From positions 1-35,576 of the forward strand of contig JAJFIV010000019.1 in assembly GCA_021774625.1 (NCBI GenBank): DNA of 35,576 nucleotides, given 5' to 3'. This DNA comes from Alphaproteobacteria bacterium (GTDB lineage: Bacteria > Pseudomonadota > Alphaproteobacteria > Sphingomonadales > JAKSBY01). Position numbers and translations under genes: made by a program. The notes under the pieces are model-generated. The model had not been told where the DNA came from. It did not search any database and saw nothing but the letters and a program-made list of their open reading frames with translations. How positions within the stretch are numbered: the stretch's first letter is position 1; the number at the start of each line of letters is the position of its first letter. Below are positions 2,541 to 7,877 of the stretch, piece by piece.

Positions 2541-3377
2541 ATGGTGCGTCTGGCCGTCATAGGATCGGTTTTTCTGGGTTGGGTTTCCTCCGTTTTGGCG
2601 GATGAGGCCCTGCCGAGAATCGTCTCCTTCGATTTCTGCGCCGATCAATATGTTCTGGCGCTGGCCGATGCGGATCAGATTGTGGCGCTTTCCCCGGATG
2701 CGGCCGCAGTCTTTTCCTATTTCCATGATAAGGCCAGGCCGTTTCCGACCCATAGCGGGAATGCGGAGGAAATTGCCGTTCTGAAACCCGATCTGCTGGT
2801 GCGGATTGCGGGCGGCGCCTTCAAGCTTCAGGAAATTCTCGTCCATTTTGCTATCGAGACCGCCGATATCGGCTTCGGTAACAGTTTCGGGGATATCGAA
2901 GCTGCCATCACGCGAATCGCAGGTGCCGTGGGTCATCCGGAGCGGGGCAGGGCGCTGATTGCCGATATGCGGCGGCGGCTGGCGACATTGCAGGCGAGAG
3001 CGGCAGCCCGTTCCGGTTCCGCTAATCCGGTAGGCGTCTATCTGACCCCCAGCACATCTTCTACCGGGTCGGGCACTTTTGTGCACCAGGCCATGGAAAT
3101 GGCCGGACTTGACAATCTGCTGGCGCTCGCCGGCTATCAGGGCTGGAATGAATTGCCGCTGGAAATGCTGATCGCCAATCCGCCGGATATTCTGGTCACC
3201 AGTTTTTTCGATAATATGCAGGGCCACAGCGAAACCTGGCGCGGCTCGAAACACGCGGTGGTTCGGAACCTTGCTGCTAGCCGTCCCGTTGTTGACGTGC
3301 CGAGCCGTTACTGGTCCTGCACCGGCTGGTTTCTGCTGGACGCTATCGAGCTGATTGAACGGGAAGCAAACCGGTGA
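2541..3377 (+). CDS. btuF: periplasmic cobalamin-binding protein of an ABC importer, BtuF-like
   Basis: This is a 278-residue solute-binding protein of the helical-backbone class (BtuF/FepB family). A signal peptide (MVRLAVIGSVFLGWVSSVLA) is followed by PRIVSFDFCADQYVLALADADQIVALSPDA, the usual first strand and helix of the family. A conserved 'KPDLLVRIAG' and a C-terminal 'ANPPDILVTSFF' belong to the two lobes. The frame continues upstream inside btuB, but the ATG at 2541 is preferred because GGAG (2531-2534) precedes it and the signal peptide starts there. It would deliver cobalamin from the periplasm to the permease encoded next. Other members of this family bind iron-siderophores; the B12 role comes from the riboswitch and btuB context. 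Confidence 0.85.
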   Translation: MVRLAVIGSVFLGWVSSVLADEALPRIVSFDFCADQYVLALADADQIVALSPDAAAVFSYFHDKARPFPTHSGNAEEIAVLKPDLLVRIAGGAFKLQEILVHFAIETADIGFGNSFGDIEAAITRIAGAVGHPERGRALIADMRRRLATLQARAAARSGSANPVGVYLTPSTSSTGSGTFVHQAMEMAGLDNLLALAGYQGWNELPLEMLIANPPDILVTSFFDNMQGHSETWRGSKHAVVRNLAASRPVVDVPSRYWSCTGWFLLDAIELIEREANR

Positions 3378-4366
3378 CGCAGGATCGGCTTATCTGGACG
3401 CTGCTTTTGGCCATGACTGTCCTTTTGGGATTTCTGTCCCTGCTGCCGGGTCCCGCGGATTTATCGGCGGGAGAAGTTTTGAAGGGATTGATCCTGCCTG
3501 ATGAGAGTGCGGCATCCCTCATTGTCCGGGAAATCCGGCTGCCGCGTGCATTGCTCGGCATTATTGTCGGGGCCACCCTTGGCCTTGCCGGCGCCGCCCT
3601 GCAGGGCCTGTTGCAGAACCCGCTGGCGGAACCCGGGATTGTCGGGGTTTCGGCCAGCGCCGGATTGGGAGCCGTGATTGCGCTTTATTTCGGCATATCC
3701 GGCGGTTTCGCCCTTGCCGTGCCGCTGTTTGCCATGGCGGCGGCGCTGGCGGCAACCTTTGTACTTTTTGTGGCGGCAAGCCGGGGCGCGAGCGTGCTGA
3801 CCCTCATTCTGCTGGGCGTTGCCATCAACAGCATGGCGATGGCCTTTACGTCGCTGGCGCTCAATCTTTCCCCCAACCCTTTTGCTCTTAATGATATCGT
3901 GCTGTGGCTGCTGGGCAGTATCACCAATCGCGGTTATTCCGATATTATGCTGGTGCTGCCCTTTGCGGTAATCGGCTGGGTTCTGATGATTGCCGGCGGA
4001 AGAGGCCTGCAGGCGCTGACGCTCGGCGATGAGACGGCCACCTCGCTTGGCGTCAATCTCGGCCGGCTGCGGGGGCAGGTGATCATTGGCGCTTCCGTAT
4101 CCGTCGGCGCCTGTGTGGCCATTTGCGGGGCGATCGGCTTTGTCGGGCTGGTGGTGCCGCATATGGTCCGGCCTTTCGTCGGGCATGATCCGAAGCGCAT
4201 CCTGGTTCCCTCAGCCCTGCTTGGCGCGATGCTGCTGACGGCCGCCGATATTACTGTCCGGCTGCTTCCCGGCGGACAGGAATTAAAACTTGGCGTTGTC
4301 ACCTCTCTGATTGGCTCCCCTTTCTTTGTCTATCTGATTTTCCGGATGAGAAAGGCTCTGCCATGA
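3374..4366 (+). CDS. btuC: cobalamin ABC transporter permease, BtuC-like (FecCD family)
   Basis: This 330-residue integral membrane protein has about nine or ten hydrophobic segments. It carries family motifs such as IRLPRALLGIIVGATLGLAGAALQGLLQNPLAEPGIVG near residues 53-95 and CGAIGFVGLVVPHMVRPFVGHDPKR near 250-275, the latter forming the coupling region for the ATPase. It starts with GTG at 3374, four bases inside the end of the binding-protein gene, which indicates translational coupling. With the downstream ATPase it would form the inner-membrane B12 importer. The fold assignment is secure; the substrate is inferred from the operon. Confidence 0.88.
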   Translation: MTQDRLIWTLLLAMTVLLGFLSLLPGPADLSAGEVLKGLILPDESAASLIVREIRLPRALLGIIVGATLGLAGAALQGLLQNPLAEPGIVGVSASAGLGAVIALYFGISGGFALAVPLFAMAAALAATFVLFVAASRGASVLTLILLGVAINSMAMAFTSLALNLSPNPFALNDIVLWLLGSITNRGYSDIMLVLPFAVIGWVLMIAGGRGLQALTLGDETATSLGVNLGRLRGQVIIGASVSVGACVAICGAIGFVGLVVPHMVRPFVGHDPKRILVPSALLGAMLLTAADITVRLLPGGQELKLGVVTSLIGSPFFVYLIFRMRKALP

Positions 4367-5178
4367 GCCTGATTCTGGCGGAAAATATTTTGCTAGCAAT
4401 TGACGGAAGGGTCATTGTCAAAAACATTTCCATGGCGGGGGCAGAAAGTGAACTGATCGGCCTGATCGGCCCTAACGGGGCCGGCAAAAGCACGCTTTTA
4501 AAAGCGTTCGCCGGTATTTCCTCTTACACAGGCAGAATTTCTATCTGCGGGGAAGATGCCGCGCGGCAAAGCCAAAAATGGCTATCGCAAAAAATTTCCT
4601 ACCTGCCGCAGGATCCGGTCATCCGCTGGCCGGTCACCGGGCGGAAGCTGGTAGAGCTTGGCCGTCTGCCCTATCTTGACCCCTGGCGCCGCAGGGCGGC
4701 CGGGGACCTTCAGGCGATTGATCGGGCGATGGCACTGACTGACACAGTGCAGTTCGCTGATCGGGAAATCATGTCGCTTTCCGGCGGCGAGCGGGCGCGT
4801 GTTCTGCTGGCCCGCGCCTTTGCGACCGGTGCGCCGATTATTCTGGCGGATGAGCCGGTGGCGGCACTTGACCCTTACCATCAGCTTCACACTATGGAAC
4901 TGTTGCAGGAAAAATCACGGGCCGGCTGCTGTGTGATTGTGGTACTGCAGGACCTGACGCTGGCGGCGCGTTTTTGCGACCGGCTGGTCCTGCTGTCGGA
5001 AGCGGGAATTATCGCCGATGATAAGCCTTTGGCTGTCTTGACCGATTCGCATTTGGAATCCGCCTATCAAATATCGGCCATCACTGTCTCGGAGGAAGAT
5101 GAAAAGGCCATTCTGCCATGGCGGCGGCTCGGCTCGCAGGTCACAAAAACAAGCTATGCAGCCAAAAATGGCAAATAG
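4363..5178 (+). CDS. btuD: cobalamin ABC transporter ATP-binding protein, BtuD-like
   Basis: This 271-residue ABC ATPase starts with ATG overlapping the permease stop codon (ATGA). Walker A is GPNGAGKST (36-44), the Q-loop region contains LPQDP (81-85), the signature is LSGGE (139-143), and Walker B is IILADEP (159-165) followed by the D-loop AALD. A switch histidine is not evident: the expected position reads VVLQDLTLAARFCD, where many homologues have 'xxHDLxxA', so Gln stands where His is usual. Iron/B12 ATPases of the FecE/BtuD type often read 'LHDLNLAARF', so this is a real departure worth noting. It closes the B12 operon. Confidence 0.87.
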   Translation: MSLILAENILLAIDGRVIVKNISMAGAESELIGLIGPNGAGKSTLLKAFAGISSYTGRISICGEDAARQSQKWLSQKISYLPQDPVIRWPVTGRKLVELGRLPYLDPWRRRAAGDLQAIDRAMALTDTVQFADREIMSLSGGERARVLLARAFATGAPIILADEPVAALDPYHQLHTMELLQEKSRAGCCVIVVLQDLTLAARFCDRLVLLSEAGIIADDKPLAVLTDSHLESAYQISAITVSEEDEKAILPWRRLGSQVTKTSYAAKNGK

Positions 5179-5223: not shown

Positions 5224-5251
5224 TTGCATTTTTCTTATTTTATCTTAAATG
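5224..5251 (+). promoter_or_regulatory. weak candidate promoter for the polyamine operon
   Basis: TTGCAT (5224-5229) and TAAATG (5246-5251) are separated by 16 bp in an AT-rich stretch between btuD and the structured leader. It is the best match I see there, but it is not strong. Confidence 0.25.
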
Positions 5252-5269
5252 AAGCTTTCCGCACACGCA

Positions 5270-5585
5270 CGTGCCCCTGGCCGTTAGAGTTATGTAACGG
5301 CGTGTCGGCCTTTTGTTAGTTGGATCGTTGGCTGAGTTTGCGTAAAGGCTGCGATTTCTAATTGCCAAGGGAGTCGACAATGACCTCCATAACGCTTGCC
5401 TATCACGGCACTTTATTGATGTGTGATCTTACCGCTGTTTTCCGTCCGCGCACCTATATTAAATGGTGGTATCTGGTCCTGGATATGACCAGTCCGATGC
5501 TCTGTAATCGCTGATTTGACCGCTTTGGCCTTCGGGTCAAATTCTGATCATCAGGCGTCACGGGACGCCGGCAGAGTAGGGTGGA
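5270..5585 (+). ncRNA. speF-type leader region of ornithine decarboxylase
   Basis: A 400-nt stretch between btuD and ornithine decarboxylase contains several hairpins. GCCGTTA/TAACGGC pairs at 5280-5286/5295-5301. CTGGTC/GACCAG pairs at 5473-5478/5487-5492. TTGGCC/GGTCAA with a TTCG loop lies at 5525-5540, and GGCGTC/GACGCC at 5554-5569 just before the ribosome-binding site. Alphaproteobacterial ornithine decarboxylase genes are known to be preceded by the conserved 'speF' RNA motif (Rfam speF), and this region has the right place and size. I could not align it to the Rfam model, so membership is inferred from context plus the visible structure. It also holds an upstream ORF, listed separately. 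Confidence 0.55.
5380..5514 (+). CDS. 44-codon upstream ORF in the ornithine decarboxylase leader (putative leader peptide)
   Basis: The ATG at 5380 has a good ribosome-binding site (AAGGGAG, about 5367-5373) and opens a 44-codon frame ending in TGA at 5512-5514, 75 bases before the ornithine decarboxylase start. The peptide begins MTSITLAYHGTLLMCDLTAV, contains an aromatic cluster IKWWY, and ends SPMLCNR. It resembles no family I recognise. Its stop codon sits directly before two competing hairpins, TTGACC (5516-5521) or TTGGCC (5525-5530) pairing with GGTCAA (5535-5540). A ribosome paused at the end of the ORF would change their balance. Enterobacterial speF is controlled by an ornithine-sensing leader peptide, but this peptide shows no obvious similarity to it. 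The ORF could be fortuitous; RBS and position argue for translation. Confidence 0.45.
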   Translation: MTSITLAYHGTLLMCDLTAVFRPRTYIKWWYLVLDMTSPMLCNR

Positions 5586-5589
5586 CGAT

Positions 5590-6828
5590 ATGACATTCCC
5601 CTTGGTACATACTGAAATAAATCTGTTCGACTGTTCGCATGCCGGTTTGCCGGTTTTCCGCTCGGCGGGCGATACGGTCCGGAAAATTGGTGATGAGGCG
5701 CCGATCCAGTGCCTGTATCCGGAAATCATCCGCAAAACCGCGCATAATTTTCTCGCCAGATTTCCGGGCGATATTCTATATGCGGTGAAATGCAACCCGC
5801 ATCCGGCTGTTCTCAGCTACCTGGTTGAGGCCGGTATCCGGCATTTCGATGTTGCCTCCGTTGCGGAAATCGAAGCGGTGCAGGCGATCATGCCGGAAGC
5901 TGCCCTCTATTTCATGCATCCGATCAAAAGCCGAAAAGCAATTCGCTTCGCCTATGACCGGGGTGTCCGTGATTTTGCTATTGATAGCGACGTGGAACTC
6001 GACAAGATCGTGGAGGAGACGGATGGCGCGCCTGACCTCAATCTTTATGTGCGCATCGCCCTGGCGCGGGGGGCTGTGGAATATGATCTGTCCGGTAAGT
6101 TCGGCATTGCCGGCCCGGCTGCCGTTGAACTGATCGCCCGTGCCCGGTCCAGAGCCCGGACGCTAGGCGTCAGTTTCCATGTGGGCTCGCAATGCATGTC
6201 GCCTTTGGCCTACCGCAATGCCATTGGTGTGGTGCGGGATCTGGTGGATGCGGCGGATGTCACCATCGACCGGCTGGATGTGGGCGGCGGGTTTCCCGTT
6301 AACTATCCCGGCATGACGCCGCCGCCGCTGGGATTTTTCATGGATGAGATCAAACGCGCCGCCGAGCTTTATGGATTCGGCAGTCTGCATCTGATGTGCG
6401 AACCGGGCCGGGCCATGGTGGCGGAAGGCGGCTCGGTCCTGGTGCGGGTCGAGCAGCGGCGGGGCAATGTGCTCTATCTCAATGACGGCACGTATGGCGC
6501 CCTGTTTGATGCGGGCACTCCGCGCTGGCGCTTTCCCGTACAATTGTTGCGCCAAGGTGGTGGGTCCAAAAACATGGCTCCTTTCAGCTTTTTCGGGCCG
6601 ACCTGCGATAGCCTCGATAAAATGGATGGTCCGTTTTACCTGCCCGATGATGTGCGCGAAGGCGACTGGATTGAAGTCAGGCAACTGGGAGCCTATGGTG
6701 CCGTCATGCGAACCAATTTCAACGGTTTTTACACCGATGTGACCGTTGCCGTCTCCGAGAATAATCTGGGAAGCCGGAACCCGTTCGCCCGGCAGGACGG
6801 CCAGGATCAAATCAAATTGGAATTTTAA
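5590..6828 (+). CDS. ornithine decarboxylase (PLP-dependent, alanine-racemase fold)
   Basis: This enzyme decarboxylates L-ornithine to putrescine, the first step of polyamine synthesis. The ATG at 5590 gives 412 residues and sits 6 bases after GGGTGGA; an in-frame GTG at 5581 is less well placed. Visible features of the eukaryotic-type, fold-III decarboxylases are the PLP lysine in ILYAVKCNP (Lys67), the substrate-side HVGSQ, the phosphate-binding GGGFP, the EPGRAMV motif, and the catalytic cysteine in FFGPTCDSLD. It is about 30 residues longer than many alphaproteobacterial homologues. The DHS-like gene follows after two bases, so the two are cotranscribed and probably act in one pathway. 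Lysine can be an alternative substrate in this family and cannot be excluded. Confidence 0.9.
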   Translation: MTFPLVHTEINLFDCSHAGLPVFRSAGDTVRKIGDEAPIQCLYPEIIRKTAHNFLARFPGDILYAVKCNPHPAVLSYLVEAGIRHFDVASVAEIEAVQAIMPEAALYFMHPIKSRKAIRFAYDRGVRDFAIDSDVELDKIVEETDGAPDLNLYVRIALARGAVEYDLSGKFGIAGPAAVELIARARSRARTLGVSFHVGSQCMSPLAYRNAIGVVRDLVDAADVTIDRLDVGGGFPVNYPGMTPPPLGFFMDEIKRAAELYGFGSLHLMCEPGRAMVAEGGSVLVRVEQRRGNVLYLNDGTYGALFDAGTPRWRFPVQLLRQGGGSKNMAPFSFFGPTCDSLDKMDGPFYLPDDVREGDWIEVRQLGAYGAVMRTNFNGFYTDVTVAVSENNLGSRNPFARQDGQDQIKLEF

Positions 6829-6830
6829 AA

Positions 6831-7877
6831 ATGGCTGAAGCAAAACCCAAAAGCAACCGCAAGGCGGAACTGCTTTCGACCCCGGTCGAGCATGTGGATA
6901 TGACCGCCTTCGATGCGCGGCCGATCATTGATGCGATGGACAAGATGTCCTTCACGTCCCGTGATCTGGCGCGCGCAACCGGTATTTTCAATGATATGCT
7001 GGCGGATAAGGACTGCGCCGTGATCCTGACGCTGGCCGGGTCCACATCCGCCGGCGGCTGCATGCAGATTTATGCCGACATGGTGAAATACGGCATGGTG
7101 GACGCGATTGTCTCCACCGGCGCTTCCATCGTTGACATGGATTTTTTCGAGGCCCTTGGTTTCCGGCACTATCAGGGCAGTCCGTTTATTGATGACGGCG
7201 AATTGCGTTCCCATTATGTGGACCGCATTTACGACACCTATATCGATGAAGAGGAATTGCAGAATTGCGATTTCACCATCAAGGCGATTGCCGACGCGCT
7301 CCCGGCCAAACCCTATTCGTCGCGCGAATTTATCCGGGAAATGGGCCGCTGGCTGAAGGACAACGCCAGGAAAAAAGGCTCGCTGATTGAAACGGCCTAT
7401 GATCACGATGTGCCCATCTTCTGCCCGGCCTTCACCGATTCCAGCGCCGGTTTCGGTCTTGTCAGCCATCAGGTTGAACGCCCCGACAATCACCTGACCA
7501 TCGATTCCATCCGGGATTTTCGCGAACTGACCGACATCAAGATCAAGGCGGGCACCACGGGCCTGCTGATGGTCGGTGGCGGCGTGCCGAAAAACTTCGT
7601 TCAGGATACCGTGGTTTGCGCCGAAATTCTCGGCCACGAGGCGGAGATGCACAAATACGCCATCCAGATCACGGTGGCCGATGTCCGGGACGGCGCCTGT
7701 TCCTCATCCACCCTCAAGGAAGCCTCGTCCTGGGGCAAGGTGGACACCACTTATGAGCAAATGGTCTTCGCCGAGGCCGGCTCCGTCATCCCCCTGATGG
7801 CTTCCGACGCCTATCACCGCGGCCACTGGCGGAACCGGAAGAAACACGCATTTTCGACACTGTTTCATAAGTCATAG
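6831..7877 (+). CDS. deoxyhypusine-synthase-like protein, probable polyamine aminobutyl- or aminopropyl-transferase
   Basis: This 348-residue protein belongs to the deoxyhypusine synthase family, NAD-dependent enzymes that move the aminobutyl group of spermidine. Family motifs seen are LAGSTSAGG (NAD site), VDAIVSTGASIVDMDF, the acidic stretch around DSSAGFG, and the active-site lysine in EASSWGKVDT (Lys303), equivalent to the lysine that carries the enzyme-imine intermediate in the human enzyme. Bacteria lack eIF5A, the usual substrate, so the acceptor must be different; homologues have been linked to homospermidine or spermidine formation. The gene starts two bases after the ornithine decarboxylase stop, which supports a role downstream of putrescine. 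Family membership is firm; the exact product is inferred. Confidence 0.85.
   Translation: MAEAKPKSNRKAELLSTPVEHVDMTAFDARPIIDAMDKMSFTSRDLARATGIFNDMLADKDCAVILTLAGSTSAGGCMQIYADMVKYGMVDAIVSTGASIVDMDFFEALGFRHYQGSPFIDDGELRSHYVDRIYDTYIDEEELQNCDFTIKAIADALPAKPYSSREFIREMGRWLKDNARKKGSLIETAYDHDVPIFCPAFTDSSAGFGLVSHQVERPDNHLTIDSIRDFRELTDIKIKAGTTGLLMVGGGVPKNFVQDTVVCAEILGHEAEMHKYAIQITVADVRDGACSSSTLKEASSWGKVDTTYEQMVFAEAGSVIPLMASDAYHRGHWRNRKKHAFSTLFHKS

Follow-up and report, generated by a model that had tools for sequence, protein, structure and literature searches.

A leader-peptide gene behind a speF-type 5' element in the leader of an alphaproteobacterial ornithine decarboxylase gene

The ornithine decarboxylase (ODC) leader discussed here lies in a 35,576-nucleotide stretch of DNA from a member of the Alphaproteobacteria (order Sphingomonadales; assembly GCA_021774625.1, contig JAJFIV010000019.1, positions 1 to 35,576 of the forward strand), hereafter called the window. 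It joins a 5' element that shares homology with the 5' domain of the speF RNA (RF00518) to an upstream open reading frame (uORF) of 44 codons, and we consider it fairly probable that element and leader peptide together regulate ODC, in a leader of the speF type of alphaproteobacteria. The speF RNA was described with neither a ligand nor a mechanism, and its discoverers left conserved blocks ahead of the start codon unassigned (PMC1273637); later compilations still listed it with substrate or function unknown (PMC3766115; PMC7717549). An RNA that has been an orphan since 2005 is now found to have a 5' domain reaching well past the Rfam model, mostly with a leader-peptide gene behind it. The union of this domain with a leader-peptide ODC leader appears to be a new combination, and no description of a leader peptide in speF-type leaders was found in the literature searched, outside of which lie most subscription journals.

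A sequence-only reading of this DNA had located its proposed switch within the region where the speF motif is expected. That placement holds for the 5' domain but not for the published model, as the RF00518 covariance model has no match in the window, either at gathering score or at E 10, and none in the genome; at the same two thresholds it also finds nothing in the loci of 20 relatives. A second covariance model, R1, was built from 19 leaders, excluding the window and all Rfam speF loci. R1 matches the window with 43.1 bits (E 1.5e-9), and a search of the whole genome returns this element as the single match (E 1.3e-7). It also recovers, at the same place, six loci recognised by the Rfam speF model, five with E < 0.005 and the sixth with E 0.07. 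Because R1 matches both the window and the Rfam speF loci while the Rfam model is silent on the window, the window carries the speF 5' domain in a form beyond the reach of that model. The element had been missed by the sequence-only reading.

The conserved block upstream of the uORFs has the form GACGY..CGCACGUGCC..(variable hairpin)..AACGACG..GCGUCCUUUUUGG, and Azospirillum, Roseomonas and other Acetobacteraceae, and Telmatospirillum carry it in their ODC leaders, as do many more alphaproteobacterial genomes. By R1, the window shows the arrangement that marks the speF 5' domain, whose general form is CGCACGUGCC, AACGACG and a U-rich run, closed by the pairing P1. This pairing reads CCG.ACACG / CGUGU.CGG in the window. 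The Rfam speF loci have GCCC/GGGC instead, one further leader (L012) has GACA/UGUC, and most other lineages have GACG/CGUC. RNAalifold, run on a MAFFT alignment, gave no useful structure because P1 changes register between lineages; the P1 and P2 pairs were therefore set by hand, taken from one sequence of the alignment. With pairs so defined, 83.5% of the cells in the R1 alignment are paired and the covariation score is 0.216, compared with 0.147 for shuffles, of which 1 in 500 reached that value, whereas shifting the partner by 1-3 columns lowers the pairing to 25-46%. In single sequences P1 reaches no significance, its support coming from comparison, and this comparative support for P1 and P2 is moderate. 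In reach, R1 matches 46 of 289 sampled genomes, compared with 6 of 190 for RF00518 in another sample. Judged by these comparisons, the leader in the window is of the speF type, and a leader-peptide gene follows the element.

The element is also found in other settings. In L146 and L164 it stands upstream of homospermidine-synthase-like genes (the L164 product has Pfam saccharopine dehydrogenase domains, and the homospermidine-synthase name is our reading), and in L147 it precedes a class-I glutamine amidotransferase gene, which suggests a regulon wider than ODC. L164 also has a uORF of 14 residues and, as next gene, ODC. In several genomes a separate copy of the element goes with each of two ODC paralogues (e.g., G498, with L142 and L168). 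The Rfam speF loci L031-L036 and L200-L204 contain a highly conserved stretch, AAGAGGCACACCAUC..UGCCCCAUGUGCGG, 3' of the 5' domain. An AUG accompanies it in some genomes, but the uORF place of the rhizobial-type loci examined shows no consistent frame.

From the element, with which the leader begins, it is about 110 nt to a good ribosome-binding site (RBS), where the uORF starts; the uORF ends 75 nt before the ATG of ODC. This uORF had been proposed, with its RBS and its end at 5514, from the sequence alone; all coordinates of that proposal (uORF, RBS, pairing segments, and the hairpin at 5554-5569) were verified on the sequence, and the uORF is now backed by homology and by selection on its frame in relatives. 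Among the nearest available genomes, a uORF occupies this position in the ODC leader of every ODC-positive member of two sister families (6/6 and 3/3), with peptides that end like that of the window (e.g., DRGYWRWRFMVLDKHSPMLA vs PRTYIKWWYLVLDMTSPMLCNR, each directly before the stop); in one of these nine (L008) the similarity is weak. When a profile made from the ODC-leader uORFs of seven relatives, with the window excluded, was run against the 982 open reading frames (ORFs) of the window, the uORF ranked first with E 4.5e-10, the next having 0.045, and it was still first (E 1.1e-5) with a profile from only one sister family. It was the only match in the whole genome (E 8.2e-8), and in the relatives all strong matches lie upstream of ODC. 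A class-wide sample of 289 genomes gave no further convincing match, so that the window type of peptide is restricted to a limited clade.

Further support was provided by the pattern of substitutions. Conservation of the reading frame among relatives had been set beforehand as one point on which the idea should stand or fall; the frame is kept, and the idea survived. Within a sister family, the pairwise ratio of nonsynonymous to synonymous change (pN/pS) is 0.28-0.42 in the uORF frame vs 0.97-2.06 in the other two frames, and third codon positions are the most variable. These values were measured in the sister families. On this footing, selection acts on the amino-acid sequence, in the uORF frame only, in the sister families, and the uORF is a genuine leader-peptide gene, not a chance ORF. 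Its product matches no Pfam or NCBIfam family, in agreement with the earlier view of a peptide distinct from the enterobacterial SpeFL/Orf34.

The position of the uORF is kept far beyond this clade. A Shine-Dalgarno sequence with ATG or GTG, 88-138 nt after GCACGUG, is present in 66 of 87 distinct element-bearing leaders, compared with 7.9 in shuffles (maximum 17 in 200) and with 6/87 in a control window further downstream. Sixty of these 66 starts open a short ORF, and the other six a long ORF that is ODC itself. At the end of the uORF, fold stability is raised among 43 lineage representatives (mean z -0.82, p 3e-4 vs zero); the difference is clear against positions +40..+80 (p 0.004) and not significant against the stretch just upstream (p 0.19). 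As this peak at the stop recurs across lineages whose sequences differ, the post-stop hairpin is probably a real feature and a general tendency. Taken alone, the hairpin of the window is modest (z -1.41), and fold energy is not unusual over the leader as a whole (z -0.95 for 5260-5595; -0.54 for 5500-5600).

The element, the uORF, the selection on the peptide in relatives and the tendency to structure at the stop are comparative findings, from which we infer how ODC expression, arrest, a ligand and Rho might be connected. Translation of the uORF would control the ODC gene behind it. Near the uORF stop, the polyamine or ornithine state, sensed through the nascent C-terminus, would decide whether the ribosome is held or let go; the conserved part of the peptide ends next to the stop codon. 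The state of the ribosome would then set the fate of the mRNA by way of the post-stop hairpin, the access of Rho, and base pairing between uORF codons and the ODC RBS, and the 5' element would probably set the translation of the uORF. The logic would be that of orf34/speF in Salmonella, whose mechanism includes translation of orf34, a post-stop hairpin, and a uORF-RBS pairing shown by compensatory mutations (PMC6386406), with an unrelated peptide taking the place of Orf34. More tentatively, the 5' speF element may work across the alphaproteobacteria with arrest peptides that respond to polyamines or ornithine and that form a widespread and fast-diverging family, the speF RNA then being no self-sufficient riboswitch but one read out via leader-peptide translation, which would explain why naked speF RNA yielded no ligand.

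Several points weigh against a peptide-sensing leader. Other lineages have, at the same place, sequence-unrelated peptides of 10-60 residues, which counts against one conserved sensor: Azospirillum has 11 residues (MLARHGRALRR), Acetobacteraceae have 15-16 (e.g., MLLERVAAMRSPLRIA), Telmatospirillum has 14 (MVVERARISPHFRS), and others have 30-60. In L142, L149, L150, L165, L166 and L174, and likewise in L112, the ORF at the uORF position is ODC itself. The predicted pairing between the ODC RBS and the uORF is no stronger in the window than with shuffled uORFs (fraction 0.32), and no intrinsic terminator-like site was found in the window leader.

The first two of these points also fit a mechanism in which the peptide is irrelevant and no nascent chain is sensed, uORF translation keeping Rho off or opening the ODC RBS under the gate of the 5' element; what is kept between lineages would then be the position and the RBS, as observed. 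The same mechanism gains from the finding that in 15 of 18 leaders the native uORF leaves the RBS less accessible than shuffled uORFs do; the effect is clear only in L003, L011 and L013. We nevertheless regard it as unlikely, since the amino-acid selection is frame-specific and the C-terminal stretch is conserved. The peptide is also favoured by Ser-Pro, which 14 of 51 peptides carry among their last 10 residues (2.85 after shuffling), with the reservation that the motif was picked after inspection and that homologous peptides bring the effective number nearer to seven lineages. As a separate observation, the uORF peptides of L152, L154 and L155, all from one genus, end in SSMRAPD before the stop. 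Bacterial arrest peptides are known with the core RAP(P/G), and by analogy these three may be good first candidates for arrest.

Other explanations of the uORF fare worse than its role as a sensing leader peptide. Classical attenuation by codon supply, under arginine starvation, is part of the Salmonella orf34 mechanism, where consecutive arginine codons are the precedent (PMC6386406), and ornithine is metabolically near arginine. Here, however, it is very improbable: the window uORF has no run of arginine codons, the arginine fraction of the uORF sequences is 0.134 in frame vs 0.132 in their other frames, and there is no terminator. A separate functional small protein that has only the transcript in common with ODC would also explain selection on the amino-acid sequence, but its lack of a Pfam or NCBIfam family, the occurrence of strong matches solely before ODC, and the unrelated peptides that other lineages carry at this place leave it with little credit.

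There remains the competing-hairpin switch of the sequence-only reading, in which pausing at the uORF end would place a ribosome over 5516-5521, let the UUCG hairpin form, and change ODC expression. The segments on which it was built, TTGACC (5516-5521), TTGGCC (5525-5530) and GGTCAA (5535-5540), are all present, as is the hairpin at 5554-5569, and the two pairings have similar energy. The expected effect of a paused ribosome was borne out in part, given that masking a ribosome footprint at the stop exchanges the hairpins, but access to ODC hardly changes: the unpaired probability of its RBS goes from 0.12 to 0.19 and that of the start codon is 0.56 both ways. With both pairings occupying the same GGUCAA, with relatives' post-stop hairpins built from other sequences that lack the doubled segment and the alternative hairpin of the window, and with no terminator-like site, this switch can practically be set aside.

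The deoxyhypusine-synthase-family gene directly after ODC is consistent with a polyamine operon. Its family, PRK02492, is that of 1,9-bis(guanidino)-5-aza-nonane synthase, and its role beside ODC is perhaps homospermidine formation. The window ODC is a member of the Orn/DAP/Arg decarboxylase family, the closest solved structures to it are lysine/ornithine decarboxylases, and ATG 5590 is most probably its start; a viral collection gave three ODC matches, which were uninformative. A strict consensus scan found no promoter at the window leader, and the weak pair given in Table 1 was chosen by comparison with relatives, which have CTTGCA-N17-TATATC-like pairs about 40 nt upstream of the 5' element. 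Further upstream, a cobalamin riboswitch at the start of the contig (221-426, plus strand, 95 bits) and genes for a FecCD-type permease and an ABC ATPase (3374-5178) suggest an operon for the uptake of cobalamin or an iron chelate that stops just short of the ODC leader.

Table 1. Features of the ODC leader and adjoining genes in the window
Feature	Position	Strand	Evidence or value
Promoter-like pair TTGCAT (5224-5229) and TAAATG (5246-5251), spacing 16	5224..5251	+	Weak; position compared with relatives
5' element, homologue of the speF RNA (RF00518) 5' domain	5251..5328	+	R1 covariance model, window excluded
P1 5' arm: CCG, bulged C, ACACG	5259..5267	+	Pairs with 5301-5308; in minimum free energy (MFE) fold of isolated element
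Nearly invariant core CGCACGTGCC	5266..5275	+	Alignments
Conserved GTAACGGCG (AACGACG in most relatives) and P1 3' arm CGTGT CGG (5301-5308), then CCTTTTGTT	5294..5308	+	
Shine-Dalgarno sequence of uORF, AAGGGAG	5367..5373	+	Sequence; same position in relatives
uORF, MTSITLAYHGTLLMCDLTAVFRPRTYIKWWYLVLDMTSPMLCNR and stop; 44 codons, ATG 5380, TGA 5512-5514	5380..5514	+	Profile of relatives' uORFs
Codons of conserved C-terminal stretch RTYIKWWYLVLDMTSP	5449..5496	+	Aligned part of profile match
Post-stop hairpin AUUUGACC/GGUCAAAU, overlapping the stop codon	5514..5542	+	-8.2 kcal/mol
Alternative hairpin UUUGGCC-UUCG-GGUCAAA, same 3' partner	5524..5541	+	-7.8 kcal/mol, UUCG loop
GC-rich hairpin before ODC RBS, no U tract	5554..5569	+	-10.9 kcal/mol
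ODC RBS region, predicted pairing with uORF codons 5494-5505 and 5443-5449	5571..5587	+	MFE
ODC, alanine-racemase-fold type	5590..6828	+	Pfam Orn_Arg_deC_N, E 3e-37
Deoxyhypusine-synthase-family enzyme, next gene in presumed operon	6831..7877	+	NCBIfam PRK02492, 581.9 bits (cut-off 500)

Among known systems, the leader shares with the speF RNA (RF00518; PMC1273637) the 5' domain, which is the same by R1, a place before a COG0019-type ODC gene, and conserved sequence that begins near the putative transcription start. Unlike in the published speF RNA, the long bulged stem-loop at the 3' side was not seen in the window with the full Rfam model, no column-by-column alignment to the published structure having been made, and a leader-peptide gene stands there instead; the hairpin that precedes the uORF RBS in the window has another sequence. 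An old riboswitch puzzle thereby becomes directly testable via the uORF.

The likeness to SpeFL/Orf34 of E. coli and Salmonella speF (PF10940; PMC6386406) consists of a uORF before ODC, a post-stop hairpin and a predicted uORF-RBS pairing. The window peptide differs in having no sequence relation to SpeFL, no HIRRxxH core and no consecutive arginine codons, and leader peptides unrelated to SpeFL are added before bacterial polyamine genes. The window ODC also belongs to a fold family different from that of E. coli SpeF, namely, the alanine-racemase type.

The odc1 (uORF-25-1) motif is, like the window, a uORF-bearing leader of alphaproteobacterial ODC, in which a pseudoknotted hairpin hides the RBS, two neighbouring UUG starts are present and an 11-residue peptide overlaps ODC (PMC8632094). 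Loci L018-L022, from the same order as the window, have the 11-residue TTG uORF of this motif (LNWPSTIARWG before the stop, and similar), so that two leader-peptide designs for ODC exist inside one order. The uORF of the window lies outside the odc1 design: it has 44 codons and an AUG start, is separate from ODC, and follows a speF-type element.
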